Source: Terrirubrum flagellatum (GTDB lineage Bacteria; Pseudomonadota; Alphaproteobacteria; Rhizobiales; Beijerinckiaceae). From it: a stretch of 64,000 bases of DNA. This document shows positions 16,406 to 32,390 of this stretch, in pieces. Made by a program: the position numbers and the translations under genes. Below the pieces are notes generated by a model. That model was not told where the DNA came from. It ran no database searches and saw only the letters and a program-made list of their open reading frames with translations. The stretch's first letter is position 1; every line of letters begins with the position of its first letter. The stretch is taken from positions 3,472,001 through 3,536,000 of the forward strand of contig NZ_CP091851.1 in the NCBI RefSeq assembly GCF_022059845.1. The letters run 5' to 3'.

Positions 16406-16918
16406 TCAGCGCGCGCCCTTCGGCGTCATCTTCGGCCAGCGCTTGATGCGCTCATGCCAGCGATTGATGTTGAGGTCGTCCTCGCTGCAATGGACGCGGC
16501 CGCGCACCGAAATTCCGGCGTCATGCACGCTATCGGGATCGCCTGATTTGAGCGGATGCCAGTCGTAGAGGTCCTTGCCTTCGGCGACGAGGCGATAGCC
16601 GCAGGTCGGCGGCAGCCAGGTCAGTGTGCGAACTTCATGCGGCGTCAGCGTCACGCAATCGGGCACGCGCTTCGCGCGCCTGGGATAATCCGTGCAGCGA
16701 CAGGTTTTTCCATCCAGAAGCCGGCAGGCGATGTCGGTGTGATGGATTTTGCCCGTGTCCTCGTCCTCGAGCTTGACGAGGCAGCAGCGCGCGCAGCCGT
16801 CGCAAAGCGACTCCCACTCCGCCTCCGTCATGTCCTCAAGCGCCTTCGTCCGCCAGAACGGACGAGGCTTTGACGTCCGGCGGGAGACGGACGATCGGCG
16901 GGCGGCTTGGCGCGGCAT
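16406..16918 (-). CDS. YcgN/UPF0260 family cysteine-cluster protein
   Basis: A 170-residue cytoplasmic protein of unknown function with the conserved block [23 protein letters not shown] second cysteine set follows in [17 protein letters not shown] and PDCVTLTP. The spacing suggests metal or Fe-S binding, as annotated for the UPF0260 family. The C-terminal [19 protein letters not shown] is also family-typical. The basic N-terminal extension (first about 17 residues) is less conserved, so the true start may be slightly downstream. Convergent with iolB, 4 bp apart. Confidence 0.88.
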
Positions 16919-17881: not shown

Positions 17882-17950
17882 AAGATGCATCTTGACGGAA
17901 CATACAGAGAACATTAACGACAATCTGGGACGAATCAGCGACAGTCTGTC
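17882..17950 (+). promoter_or_regulatory. Palindromic control region of the methyltransferase gene
   Basis: AAGATGCATCTT (17882-17893) is a perfect 12-bp palindrome. Its right end overlaps TTGACG (17892-17897), a -35-like hexamer; 17 bp further is TAACGA, a weak -10. GACAGTCTGTC (17940-17950) is a perfect 11-bp palindrome between the predicted transcription start and the ribosome-binding site. CTGGGAC and GTCCCAG flank it as wider inverted arms. Type II methyltransferases with an N-terminal HTH, such as M.EcoRII and M.SsoII, repress their own promoter at such sites; that role here is inference. Confidence 0.55.
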
Positions 17951-17975
17951 CAGATTCAGTCCCAGCGAGGCCCCC

Positions 17976-19223
17976 ATGAGCCGCCCCCAATCAGCCTTGG
18001 AATTTGAACGCGCGAGGACGACCTGCGGGATGTCGGTGGCCGAGGCAGCCGCCTATCTTGGTCTCTGTGAGAGGACTATTCAACGCTACGAAAGCGGGGA
18101 AACCCGCGCATCACCTGTTGCTATCAAATGGCTTCAGGAGCATGCAGCCCAGCTCGCTGCCCTCCATTCGAAAAGCGCCGAATTCACGTTCATTGATTTG
18201 TTCGCCGGGATAGGCGGTCTTCGGAAAGGCTTTGAGCACATTGGCGGCAAGTGCATTTTCACTTGCGAATGGGATCAATACAGCCGGAAAACATACAAGG
18301 AAAATTATTCGGTTGATCACGAATTTGGCGGCGATATTCGCGAGTTCGCTGCGCAACCAGAGCGCATTCCAAAGCATGATGTTCTTTTGGCCGGGTTTCC
18401 TTGCCAGCCATTCTCGATCGCCGGCGTCTCAAAGAAGAATGCCCTCGGCCGCCCGCACGGCTTTCTCTGCGATACGCAGGGCACCCTGTTTTTTGATCTC
18501 GCTCAAATCATCGCGCATCATAAACCTGCAGCGTTCCTGCTTGAAAACGTAAAAAATCTTGAACGGCACGATCAGGGCAAAACCTTTGCAACAATCATGC
18601 ACGTTCTCCGCAAGGAGCTGGGCTATGAAGTCCATACTCGTGTGATCGGTTCAGAGCCGTGGGTGCCGCAGAAGCGCGAGCGTATTTTCATCGTCGGCTT
18701 TCTAAGGGAGAGCCGTTTCGATTTTGACGCTCTCTCCGTTCCCGAGGGCAAACGCCCCATGCTGGGCAAGATTCTCGACCCGCATAATGAAGTTGATCCC
18801 AAATATACGCTGACCGCGCATTTGTGGGGTTATTTGCAGGACTACAAAAAAAAGCACGAAGCCAAGGGGAATGGATTCGGTTACAGTGTTTTTGGACCAA
18901 AAGATGTTACCCGCACCTTGTCCGCACGCTACTACAAGGACGGCTCCGAGGTTCTGATCGCCCAACCACGAAAAAGGCCGCGCCGCCTGACTCCTCGCGA
19001 GTGCGCCCGTTTGATGGGCTTTGACGGGCCGAACGAAAATAACTTTAAAATTCCTGTTTCGGATACCCAAGCGTACAAGCAGTTTGGCAACGCCGTCGTC
19101 GTTCCGGTCGTGAAGGCCGTTGCGGAACTGATGAAGCCTCACATTCGCTCAGCTCTCGGGGAAGTCGGAACGAATAGCGATGTTGATCAAAGCCTTCTTG
19201 ATATCAGGAGCCACGCGGCCTGA
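17976..19223 (+). CDS. DNA (cytosine-5-)-methyltransferase, Dcm/EcoRII/SsoII-like, with N-terminal HTH
   Basis: A 415-residue enzyme. Residues about 10-60 form an XRE-like helix-turn-helix. Catalytic motifs follow: DLFAGIGG (74-81), GFPCQPFSIAG with nucleophile Cys143, LLENVKNL (190s), PQKRERIFIVG (231-241). The target-recognition region includes GNGFGYSVFGPKDVTRTLSA, close to Dcm. RLTPRECARLMGF and QAYKQFGNAVVVPVV end the fold. CCWGG or CCNGG specificity is likely. The frame extends up to a TTG at 17892. ATG 17976 with GCGAGG 5-8 nt upstream is preferred because the earlier stretch looks like promoter. Base composition is more A/T-rich than neighbours, suggesting transfer. Confidence 0.93.
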   Translation: MSRPQSALEFERARTTCGMSVAEAAAYLGLCERTIQRYESGETRASPVAIKWLQEHAAQLAALHSKSAEFTFIDLFAGIGGLRKGFEHIGGKCIFTCEWDQYSRKTYKENYSVDHEFGGDIREFAAQPERIPKHDVLLAGFPCQPFSIAGVSKKNALGRPHGFLCDTQGTLFFDLAQIIAHHKPAAFLLENVKNLERHDQGKTFATIMHVLRKELGYEVHTRVIGSEPWVPQKRERIFIVGFLRESRFDFDALSVPEGKRPMLGKILDPHNEVDPKYTLTAHLWGYLQDYKKKHEAKGNGFGYSVFGPKDVTRTLSARYYKDGSEVLIAQPRKRPRRLTPRECARLMGFDGPNENNFKIPVSDTQAYKQFGNAVVVPVVKAVAELMKPHIRSALGEVGTNSDVDQSLLDIRSHAA

Positions 19224-19225
19224 TC

Positions 19226-19681
19226 ATGGCGGACGTCGTCACACCTGATGTCAGAAGCCGGATGATGGCTGGCATCAAAGGCAAGAATACAAAGCCGGAA
19301 CTGATTATCAGGCGCGGACTTCACGCCAAGGGATTCAGGTTTCGGTTGCATGATCGAAAGCTGCCAGGGAAGCCAGATCTTGTCTTCCCGAAACACTGCG
19401 CCGTCATTTTTGTTCACGGGTGTTTCTGGCACGGGCACGATTGCCACTTATTCAAATGGCCGAAGACCAGAGAAGACTTTTGGCGAGCGAAGATCACGCG
19501 GAATCGCCAAGTTGACTTCAATGCCTCCCAAGCGCTGCGGAAAGCAGGCTGGCGGGAATGCACGGTTTGGGAATGCGCGCTTAAAGGCCGCCGCCAGCAA
19601 CCTGTAGAAGCGACTATCCGCGAATGCTGCACATGGCTGCAGTCAAAAGTGGAAAATCTTGACATACGAGGATTGTGCTAA
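19226..19681 (+). CDS. vsr: Very short patch repair endonuclease
   Basis: A 151-residue protein with the Vsr core: RSRMMAGIKGKNTKPELIIR, then PGKPDLVFPKHCAVIFVHG with Asp51. CFWHGHDCHLFKWPKT carries the His cluster and cysteines. WRECTVWECALKGR lies near the C-terminus. Vsr nicks 5' of the T in T:G mismatches formed when 5-methylcytosine deaminates, limiting mutation at the methylated site. It starts 3 bp after the methyltransferase stop, and its TAA overlaps the A of the next gene's ATG, so translation of the three genes is probably coupled. Confidence 0.96.
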   Translation: MADVVTPDVRSRMMAGIKGKNTKPELIIRRGLHAKGFRFRLHDRKLPGKPDLVFPKHCAVIFVHGCFWHGHDCHLFKWPKTREDFWRAKITRNRQVDFNASQALRKAGWRECTVWECALKGRRQQPVEATIRECCTWLQSKVENLDIRGLC

Positions 19682-20615
19682 TGGGATTTCTTTCTTTGGC
19701 TCACATGGAGGCTTACCTTTCAAAGAGTTTGACGAGTCTAAACCAAAACAAACTAAACGGGCTTCGCGCGGAAATTGATTTTCGCACACTTATTGCGAAG
19801 CTCGGATTTGAAAGAAGAGTGTCGGCAGGCGGGTGGCTGCTGAGAAATACTCGCGGCAATTTTGGCCATCATATCGTAGCCGTCTTTCCACATGTTATCG
19901 AGCCCAACAGAGATTATTCTGGCACTCCGACGACATCAAACATTCCCACCAACCTTCATACCATTTGCGCCACATTTAATCAGTTGGGGATCAAAAGCTA
20001 TTATGCACACCCGATTATCGATAGCGCCGGCGCTATCGAATGGAAGTTCGTTAGGCTCGGAGTTCCCCACATAGACTCGTTCGTCAGCGCCACTGACCTG
20101 ATTGCGGGTTTCCACAAACGCCCTCGTCATTACAATTTCTTGCGATATCAAACAGACGCTTCGCAGATTGACCGTGTTCATCTTCCCGACGAATTCTCGA
20201 AGGAAAATTTGCGGATATTTCTAAGTTCGCTAATCATGTGCGAGATCGTGGACATTGATGGCATTATTTGGGGAGAGCGGCATACCTATCCGATTGAAAT
20301 AAAGGAAAAGACGGCGGCACCCGATCCGAATATGGGAGAATTTTTTGGGCTTGATGTCGGCCCATTCGTAAAACTAGCTTTCTATGCTGCAAAAAAAGAA
20401 ATCTTCACTCCTTGTTTGTCGTGAGAGAAATCATCGATACAACGAGCAGAACGCTCAAGAAATGGCACTATATTACGTTTGATACGTTGGCGCAGTTCGC
20501 CTCATGGCAAAAGATCGGAGGCGGAACAACTATGACTGGTGGCAGCAGTACCGTTGTAAGAATCCCAAAAGAGGCGTTCAGCGAACTCACTAGAGAAGCG
20601 CTGGAGAAACTCTGA
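19681..20615 (+). CDS. Putative type II restriction endonuclease, interrupted by a -1 frameshift
   Basis: Reading from ATG 19681 the frame stops at 20424 (247 residues). A second frame ending at 20615 continues as RNLHSLFVVREIIDTTSRTL. Joining them by a -1 shift at 20391-20397 gives 311 residues without an internal stop. The core has CEIVDIDGIIWGE (Asp193) followed by YPIEIKEK (Glu206, Lys208), fitting a PD-(D/E)XK site. The gene directly follows the methyltransferase and vsr, so it is probably the cognate nuclease, but I do not recognise a named enzyme. GTG 19675 is an alternative start. It is either a decayed nuclease, a programmed frameshift, or an assembly error. Confidence 0.7.
20391..20397 (+). 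other. A-AAA-AAA slippery heptamer at the frameshift
   Basis: In the zero frame the codons are GCA AAA AAA GAA. This gives an X-XXY-YYZ arrangement with both tRNALys codons able to re-pair after a -1 slip. After slipping, the next codons AGA AAT CTT CAC open the second half of the nuclease frame. No clear Shine-Dalgarno enhancer precedes it, and I see no strong stem-loop in the next 50 bases, so programmed shifting is possible but unproven. Loss of one A from an original run of eight would give the same picture. Confidence 0.5.
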
Positions 20616-31115: not shown

Positions 31116-31568
31116 ATGACATCCGGGATCGACGCCATCCTCGACGACTTCTCCGTCCTCGACGAATGGGAAGACCGCTACCGCTATCTGATCGAGCTGG
31201 GAAAGACGCTCGAGCCCCTGCCTGACGCCGCCCATAACGACGTCAACAAGGTGCGCGGCTGCGCGAGCCAGGTCTGGATCGAGCCGCATGTCGACCATTC
31301 GACCTCGCCGCCGCGTCTGTCGTGGCGGGGCGACAGCGACGCCCATATCGTCCGCGGGCTGGTTGCGCTCACTCTCGCCTTCTTCAACGGGCGCACGCCG
31401 GAAGAGGTCGTCGCGGGCGATGCGCTGAAGCTTTTCAGCGATCTCGGCCTCGCCGAGCATCTAACGCCGCAGCGCTCGAACGGCGTGCGCGCCATGGTCG
31501 AGCGCATCAAGGCGGACGCGCGGGCGGCGCGCGATCAGGCCGCCGCGCCGTCGATGTCGGGGCGATAA
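31116..31568 (+). CDS. sufE: SufE family sulfur acceptor protein
   Basis: A 150-residue cytoplasmic protein. SufE takes persulfide sulfur from the SufS desulfurase for Fe-S cluster assembly. RYRYLIELGKTLEPLPDAAH and VRGCASQVWIEP with the acceptor Cys49 are diagnostic. LTLAFFNGRTPEEV and LGLAEHLTPQRSNGVRAMVE complete the fold. No suf cluster is adjacent. Its last 34 bp overlap the convergent DUF6456 gene. Confidence 0.94.
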   Translation: MTSGIDAILDDFSVLDEWEDRYRYLIELGKTLEPLPDAAHNDVNKVRGCASQVWIEPHVDHSTSPPRLSWRGDSDAHIVRGLVALTLAFFNGRTPEEVVAGDALKLFSDLGLAEHLTPQRSNGVRAMVERIKADARAARDQAAAPSMSGR

Positions 31569-32353
31569 CCGTCCGCGCCCCAGAAGCGCAGGCCGCCGGA
31601 GCGCTCCGGCCCCTTCGCCTCCGCCGCCAGTCCGTAATGTCGGGCCAGCCGCGACAGGCCCATCTCCAGCACCAGTTTGGCCGAACGCGCCGGCCACTGG
31701 CGTTCGCGCTCGACCTCGGGCAGGCGTTTGAGGAAGCCGCAGACATCGATCAGAAGGCCCGAGAATTCGGGGCCTATAGCGATCAGCGCGCGATCGACCC
31801 GCTGGCGAGCTTCCACCATGGCCTCGGTCGCGAGCCCGGGATCGGCGCACCGCCGGCCGCTCGCCACCGACGCCGACCAGTTGGCCGTCACTCGCGGCAT
31901 GATCTGCGCTCGTTCGAGATCGGCCCGCAGACGCTCGCCCGCCGCGAACTGCACCGCCGAAATCAACGGTTCGCCGTCCGGCCCCTTGCGACGATGCAGC
32001 CAGGCGAGCGGGCTCTCCGCCTCATTGACGAGAACAGGCCCATCTCCACGCGTCACCTCTCGGAGATCGGCGTGCTGGGCGAGAAAGGCGCGCTCGGGAT
32101 CGGCGCGGAGGCGCGCCAGTCGGGCCCGACCCGCCGCGGTGATTTCGAGCCGGGGCCGGCCGGCCGCCAACCGCCTGACGGCGAGATCGTCCGAAATCAA
32201 AGTCCCCACCACATCGGCCGGGAAGCGCGCGCCGCGACCGGGCCCGGCGAGAGCTCCGTTCGCCCTTGTGATCCGCGCCGGCCCGCTCTCCAGAAGGCCA
32301 AGCAGCCGATCCGCCCGGCCATCTCTCTGATAAGTTGTTGCGTTGCCCACCAT
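31535..32353 (-). CDS. DUF6456 domain protein (winged-helix-like)
   Basis: A 272-residue cytoplasmic protein. The first 90 residues (LISDDLAVRRLAAGRPRLEI, then TAAGRARLARLRAD) look like a winged-helix DNA-binding segment. ESPLAWLHRRKGPDGEPLIS starts the DUF6456 domain, which runs to LVLEMGLSRLARHYGL. Probably a transcription regulator, common in Hyphomicrobiales, with no defined role. AGGTGG precedes the ATG. A perfect GTTC-N7-GTTC box 11 bp upstream suggests LexA control. Confidence 0.82.
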   Translation of the reverse strand: MVGNATTYQRDGRADRLLGLLESGPARITRANGALAGPGRGARFPADVVGTLISDDLAVRRLAAGRPRLEITAAGRARLARLRADPERAFLAQHADLREVTRGDGPVLVNEAESPLAWLHRRKGPDGEPLISAVQFAAGERLRADLERAQIMPRVTANWSASVASGRRCADPGLATEAMVEARQRVDRALIAIGPEFSGLLIDVCGFLKRLPEVERERQWPARSAKLVLEMGLSRLARHYGLAAEAKGPERSGGLRFWGADGYRPDIDGAAA

Positions 32354-32363
32354 GCCGCCACCT

Positions 32364-32390
32364 GTTCACTATATGTTCCTATTGTAGGAA
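32364..32390 (-). promoter_or_regulatory. LexA-type box GTTC-N7-GTTC and overlapping palindrome
   Basis: GTTC at 32364 and 32375 are separated by ACTATAT, a perfect match to the alphaproteobacterial SOS box. TTCCTA-TTG-TAGGAA (32376-32390) is a perfect palindrome sharing the second GTTC. On the minus strand TATAGT (32373-32368) could serve as the -10 of the DUF6456 gene, placing the LexA box over the promoter. On the plus strand TATAAT occurs at 32391, but nothing reads rightward from it. Confidence 0.6.

Follow-up and report, generated by a model that had tools for sequence, protein, structure and literature searches.

The window analysed here (the whole stretch of 64,000 nucleotides) harbours, at positions 17976-20615 of the forward strand, three genes arranged head to tail that encode a C5-cytosine methyltransferase, a Vsr endonuclease and a third protein with an interrupted reading frame. 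The operon is foreign, horizontally acquired and lower in GC content, and we consider that it is likely to be best explained as an acquired, mosaic type II restriction-modification operon that is controlled by LexA and by the HTH of its own methyltransferase, and in which the nuclease has been broken.

The three genes are tightly packed: the stop codon of the methyltransferase (19221-19223) and the ATG of vsr (19226) are separated by a gap of 2 nt (and not by the 3 bp given in the original prediction), and the ATG of the third gene (19681) shares one base with the vsr stop codon (TAATG), an overlap that the same prediction had described correctly. The GC contents of the methyltransferase (0.536), vsr (0.539) and the 5' part of the third gene (0.466) depart strongly from the genome mean (0.637, sd 0.033; 307 sampled ORFs of at least 200 aa), and among the sampled ORFs values of 0.54 or lower were recovered solely for the methyltransferase and the third gene. 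The latter differs by 7 points from the methyltransferase-Vsr pair, which fits an operon of mosaic origin. The initial view of the locus as a transferred, tightly coupled and lower-GC module composed of a Dcm/EcoRII-like methyltransferase, a Vsr and a PD-(D/E)XK-like nuclease is upheld by composition, family matches and homologue context.

The genes flanking the locus (YcgN-like, 16406-16918, -; PBP, from 20867, +) are close divergent neighbours in 8 of the 11 relatives sampled for the presence of the island; the site is therefore empty in these genomes and the operon represents an insertion. Relative to the same genomes, two small genes with normal GC content belong to the inserted segment as well. 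The direct repeats found at the island edges were only short and chance-like, and the promoter and terminator scan of the locus performed no better than on shuffled sequences.

The methyltransferase (17976-19223, +; 415 aa) belongs to the Dcm/EcoRII type and has an N-terminal HTH (PF00145, 1.8e-76; TIGR00675; best PDB matches 3lx6/3me5). Its start is most likely the ATG at 17976, the TTG at 17892 falling in the promoter. At E <= 1e-40 the genome contains no other gene of this type. The enzyme shares 60-75% identity, over the conserved part, with its relatives from the same family (Beijerinckiaceae). The target-recognition region was found to be 58% identical to that of the plasmid-borne M.EcoRII (L071) and 52% identical to that of an SsoII-like enzyme (L070, a plasmid methyltransferase taken here as M.SsoII), from which the LW-YL-KH block is absent. 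As this region is EcoRII-like and lacks the SsoII-like divergence, CCWGG is the best guess for the target, and we infer from the sequence that the enzyme most likely produces 5mC at this site. CCWGG depletion, considered as a sign of methylation history, was discarded as not specific (0.72 here vs. 0.78 in relatives). The neighbouring gene (19226-19681, +) codes for a very-short-patch-repair endonuclease of 151 aa (Vsr; PF03852, 1.1e-30; TIGR00632, 138.8 bits against a cut-off of 97.9).

Upstream of the methyltransferase, the promoter region contains an alphaproteobacterial LexA-type box, GAACATACAGAGAAC (17898-17912, +; GAAC-N7-GAAC), that is the complement form of the GTTC-N7-GTTC stated as the LexA consensus of Caulobacter (PMC12907096). 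It abuts a tentative -35-like hexamer (TTGACG, 17892-17897, +), read from the sequence and absent from the automatic promoter matches, near which no good -10 hexamer was found. Boxes of the same form precede the genome's own recA (742732-742746) and lexA (1691796-1691810), together with genes that resemble ssb and dnaE by sequence. Across 29 methyltransferase-Vsr loci (the window, loci from across the order and one plasmid locus, L072), the exact box was present in 22 and a one-mismatch version in another 6, at a similar distance to the catalytic domain. By comparison, spacings of 5, 6, 8 and 9 yielded no occurrences, the reversed pattern one, and shuffled sequences 0.35 on average (at most 3); among six methyltransferase loci without Vsr, the box was present in two. 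The pattern was spotted by eye in the family loci and counted afterwards; the loci fetched from other families of the order after it had been defined (L143-L158), most of which carry the box, constitute a partly independent test. Third-gene loci from other phyla displayed no consistent exact LexA-type box upstream; L050 had one isolated GTTC-N7-GTTC, and sites with one mismatch were seen in L046 and L055.

Taken by itself the pattern is not specific, as its exact form occurs 126 times in the genome vs. 118 times for the reversed control, and the box might thus be inherited sequence that has no regulatory function here. We regard this reading as quite improbable, given that the box recurs at a similar position in 22 of 29 methyltransferase-Vsr operons, in two orientations and with mostly unconserved flanking bases, that the controls are close to zero, and that the same form is found at the organism's own recA and lexA. 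LexA control of the operon is consequently the reading that we retain as a prediction.

Boxes of the LexA type were also observed elsewhere. Within the window, a second one (GAACATATAGTGAAC; 32364-32378, -) is located just upstream of an uncharacterised ORF of 272 aa (31535-32353, -), and in two further loci (L135 and L136; G000:C1:1797024 and 2189697) an identical box, GAACATATAGAGAAC, precedes uncharacterised ORFs that closely resemble each other (243 and 269 aa). Those of L133 and L140 are placed ahead of small ORFs that resemble ParD/RelB-type antitoxins, which suggests SOS-linked toxin-antitoxin pairs.

Downstream of the LexA box, a long imperfect inverted repeat (CTGGGAC-GAATC ... GATTC-A-GTCCCAG; 17925-17965, +; z -2.6 as RNA and -3.6 as DNA) encloses the palindrome GACAGTCTGTC (17940-17950, +), of the form GNCA-N3-TGNC. 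This form was recovered upstream of 20 of the 27 methyltransferases of the HTH type, in most cases at a comparable position (mean of shuffles 0.77), and of one of the eight methyltransferases without the HTH or with a match that stops short of it. Since the EcoRII and SsoII methyltransferases are reported, in titles cited by PMC3874152, to regulate their own promoters, the palindrome is likely a binding site of the methyltransferase's own HTH, and we predict from its distribution that the operon is subject to HTH control. The HTH had been recognized in the original prediction. The operator and the LexA box, which are more unusual than any other feature of the locus, went unmentioned there.

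The third gene (5' part 19681-20424, +) matched nothing in Pfam, NCBIfam, PADLOC, PHROGs or the PDB sequences. Profile comparison of its product with restriction enzyme families, suggested at the outset, gave no match to EcoRII-C (PF09019, looked at up to E 10) or to MvaI/BcnI (PF15515, with L029 and L051 as comparison loci), while sister operons match PF09019 strongly; the SsoII-type nuclease was compared through the Pfam and PDB searches only. The plasmid and phage collections, queried with the window protein or with the L046 homologue, returned nothing, and in 397 genomes of the order, 385 of the class and 299 of the phylum the only convincing match was the gene itself (two marginal ones, located inside unrelated genes, were rejected as chance).

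Homologues were recovered by pattern scans steered by the window protein aligned with artificially varied copies of itself, every match being confirmed by tblastn with the real sequence. Nine intact genes (47-55% identity along their whole length or most of it) were obtained in this way: one from a phage-like contig (L046) and eight from bacterial genomes labelled as Endomicrobiales, Burkholderiales, Verrucomicrobia (two), Chloroflexi, Proteobacteria, an unclassified bacterium and Peribacillus; two of the nine (L053 and L054) have nearly the same sequence. Homologues placed outside restriction-modification loci would have spoken against the proposed role, yet eight of the nine adjoin a Dcm-type methyltransferase, the ninth (L052) being situated at a contig end after an HNH gene; Vsr, MvaI or EcoRII also occur at some of these loci.

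A D...E-x-K motif (D191/D193 and E206-I-K208 in the window) is invariant among the homologues. In the AlphaFold2 model of the L046 homologue (pLDDT 79, pTM 0.78) its counterparts (D195/D197 and E210-x-K212) belong to the alpha-beta core expected of PD-(D/E)XK nucleases. The best plausible Foldseek matches (RecU, HincII, DpnI and PvuII) were weak, none reaching E <0.05, which indicates that no close solved relative was found. The product thus likely fits a predicted PD-(D/E)XK nuclease, and the modelled core together with the Dcm-type neighbours (8/9) points to an uncharacterised family of restriction nucleases, whose members would presumably cut unmethylated sites.

A different role, as an accessory nuclease that travels with Dcm-type modules and is not their cognate restriction enzyme, may be suggested by the coexistence of the family with EcoRII (L055), MvaI/BcnI (L051) and HNH domains (L052, L053/L054). 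We hold this to be rather unlikely, as, Vsr aside, L046, L048, L049, L050 and the window show no nuclease candidate other than the third protein, whose start overlaps the methyltransferase stop by 4 bases in L046 and L051. In one locus of the family, L046 (1-5948), an intact methyltransferase and a new-family nuclease sit on a viral contig downstream of structural-protein-like genes; phages may thus carry the system. In L054 (3487-5556) the Dcm-type methyltransferase just upstream of the homologue is a fusion with an HNH_2 nuclease domain.

The type of methyltransferase found in the window occurs in 23 of 298 family genomes, usually with Vsr after it. In the family loci examined, Vsr is followed by an EcoRII-type or MvaI/BcnI-type enzyme (or, in one locus, by a GHKL ATPase), and the window's third gene is absent from them. 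The nuclease slot is interchangeable, being filled by EcoRII or MvaI in related methyltransferase-Vsr operons. The ATPase-bearing locus (L024:1934-3655) has a GHKL/HSP90-type gene (HATPase_c_3) and no type II nuclease after the methyltransferase-Vsr pair, and possibly represents a different system linked to such pairs. Two other loci combine one methyltransferase with two unrelated restriction-type nucleases: L055 (3576-6963) holds an EcoRII and a new-family enzyme, and L051 (4865-8673) a new-family nuclease and an MvaI/BcnI enzyme, followed by a Vsr-like gene.

In the window the third gene is broken, as originally proposed. It is read in frame 1 up to the TGA at 20424, so that the 5' part finishes with a frame-shifted tail, and in frame 0 onward to 20615. 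The frame changes inside GCA AAA AAA GAA (20389-20400), where homologue alignment and codons show the sequence, at a run of A7 followed by GA (20391-20399, +), to be net one base short of the intact homologues. The 3' part (20397-20615, +; the last ~72 residues) was recovered as a separate second match in the searches. Its identity to the homologues (53-67%) is on a par with that of the catalytic core (53-65%), and this lack of drift implies that the break is recent, or possibly an assembly error. All nine homologues are read without interruption through Y-A-[AS]-K-[RH]-G-N-L-[HQ]-S, and the joined reading of the window (K-K-R-N-L) has the correct length and misses the invariant Gly. Both observations make a recent inactivating indel or an assembly error likelier than programmed recoding, and the recent loss of one base is the simplest reading of the sequence. 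Truncation would remove a core strand together with the conserved C-terminal tail (G-G...S-x-V-V-x-I-P), and the product is thus probably inactive here.

The main rival is a sequencing or assembly error, in which case the operon would be a complete and active restriction-modification-repair system. The adjoining A7 run and the undiminished identity past it agree with such an error, which we nonetheless judge unlikely: a codon-model scan of 464 kb of the genome detected a single gap-free frame switch lacking a start codon nearby (hence, indel errors look rare in this assembly), and adjusting the length of the A run alone would still leave the invariant Gly missing.

Far less probable is the second alternative of the original prediction, namely recoding; here, -1 ribosomal frameshifting or transcriptional slippage at A7 would yield the nuclease and set its dose. 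A slippery A-AAA-AAA heptamer is indeed present in the right phase and the -1 product matches the length of the homologues through the junction, but no stable RNA structure was detected downstream of the run (z -0.45), an Arg takes the place of the Gly found in 9/9 homologues, and neither the heptamer nor the break occurs in any of them. Programmed recoding would normally call for a conserved site, and the uniqueness of this one to the window disfavours the explanation. The intact homologues and the missing Gly thus leave the first alternative, a solitary methyltransferase accompanied by Vsr, as the better of the two.

Under the reading that we prefer, LexA bound at the promoter-region box would repress the operon until DNA damage occurs, while the N-terminal HTH of the methyltransferase would restrain its own transcription through the GACAGTCTGTC palindrome; expression would then be low in healthy cells, tuned by the methyltransferase itself and raised by damage. 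The methyltransferase would generate 5mC (most likely at CCWGG), and Vsr would repair the T:G mismatches that arise at methylated sites. The third gene, from an undescribed PD-(D/E)XK family, would occupy the slot that sister operons give to EcoRII- or MvaI-type enzymes, and would presumably have cleaved sites lacking methylation; the loss of one base near 20391-20399 would remove the conserved last quarter of the nuclease, so that the working output here is probably that of a solitary methyltransferase and Vsr (5mC plus very-short-patch repair).

On a broader scale, and with somewhat less assurance than for the window itself, we think it rather probable that the Dcm-Vsr-restriction operons of Alphaproteobacteria form an SOS-inducible class under double control (LexA and HTH), with an interchangeable slot that may also be occupied by the undescribed PD-(D/E)XK restriction family. 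If so, DNA damage, including that caused by phages or incoming DNA, would raise methylation, mismatch repair and restriction together. Restriction enzymes pose a danger to the cell that carries them, and their amount is kept under tight control. The SOS model is directly testable in genetically tractable alphaproteobacteria, and the third gene would define a family of restriction nucleases missed by the profile libraries searched, with intact members ready to be assayed. Within the open-access literature searched we encountered no report of a LexA-boxed restriction-modification operon or of the third-gene nuclease family.

Among known systems, the E. coli dcm-vsr pair resembles the window in having a Dcm-type methyltransferase followed by vsr, and may represent a possible end state of its operon; to our knowledge, the described pair comprises neither a third gene nor an HTH operator nor a LexA box. 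The methyltransferase-Vsr-nuclease architecture is already known from the EcoRII methylase-Vsr-EcoRII-C module of Burkholderia phage KL3 (PMC3091744), which shares with the window the tight operon, the gene order and the Dcm/EcoRII-type methyltransferase, and differs from it in that the nuclease is EcoRII-C; none of three LexA box types tested was found within 400 bp upstream of the KL3 methyltransferase. The plasmid-borne EcoRII (L071) and SsoII (L070) methyltransferases are 60% and 50% identical to that of the window over the conserved part, and both systems have, according to titles cited by PMC3874152, a methyltransferase that regulates its own promoter; unlike in the EcoRII system, the window's nuclease has no match to the EcoRII profile. 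A parallel for a damage-linked Vsr is the Caulobacter vsrA, whose mRNA rises with DNA damage and which contains an internal GTTC-N7-GTTC (PMC12907096). It shares with the window a Vsr gene associated with this box form and a link to DNA damage, but its box lies inside the vsrA ORF, it forms an operon with another gene, and ScmA, the Caulobacter methyltransferase, is a solitary enzyme that lacks a restriction partner (PMC12907096).
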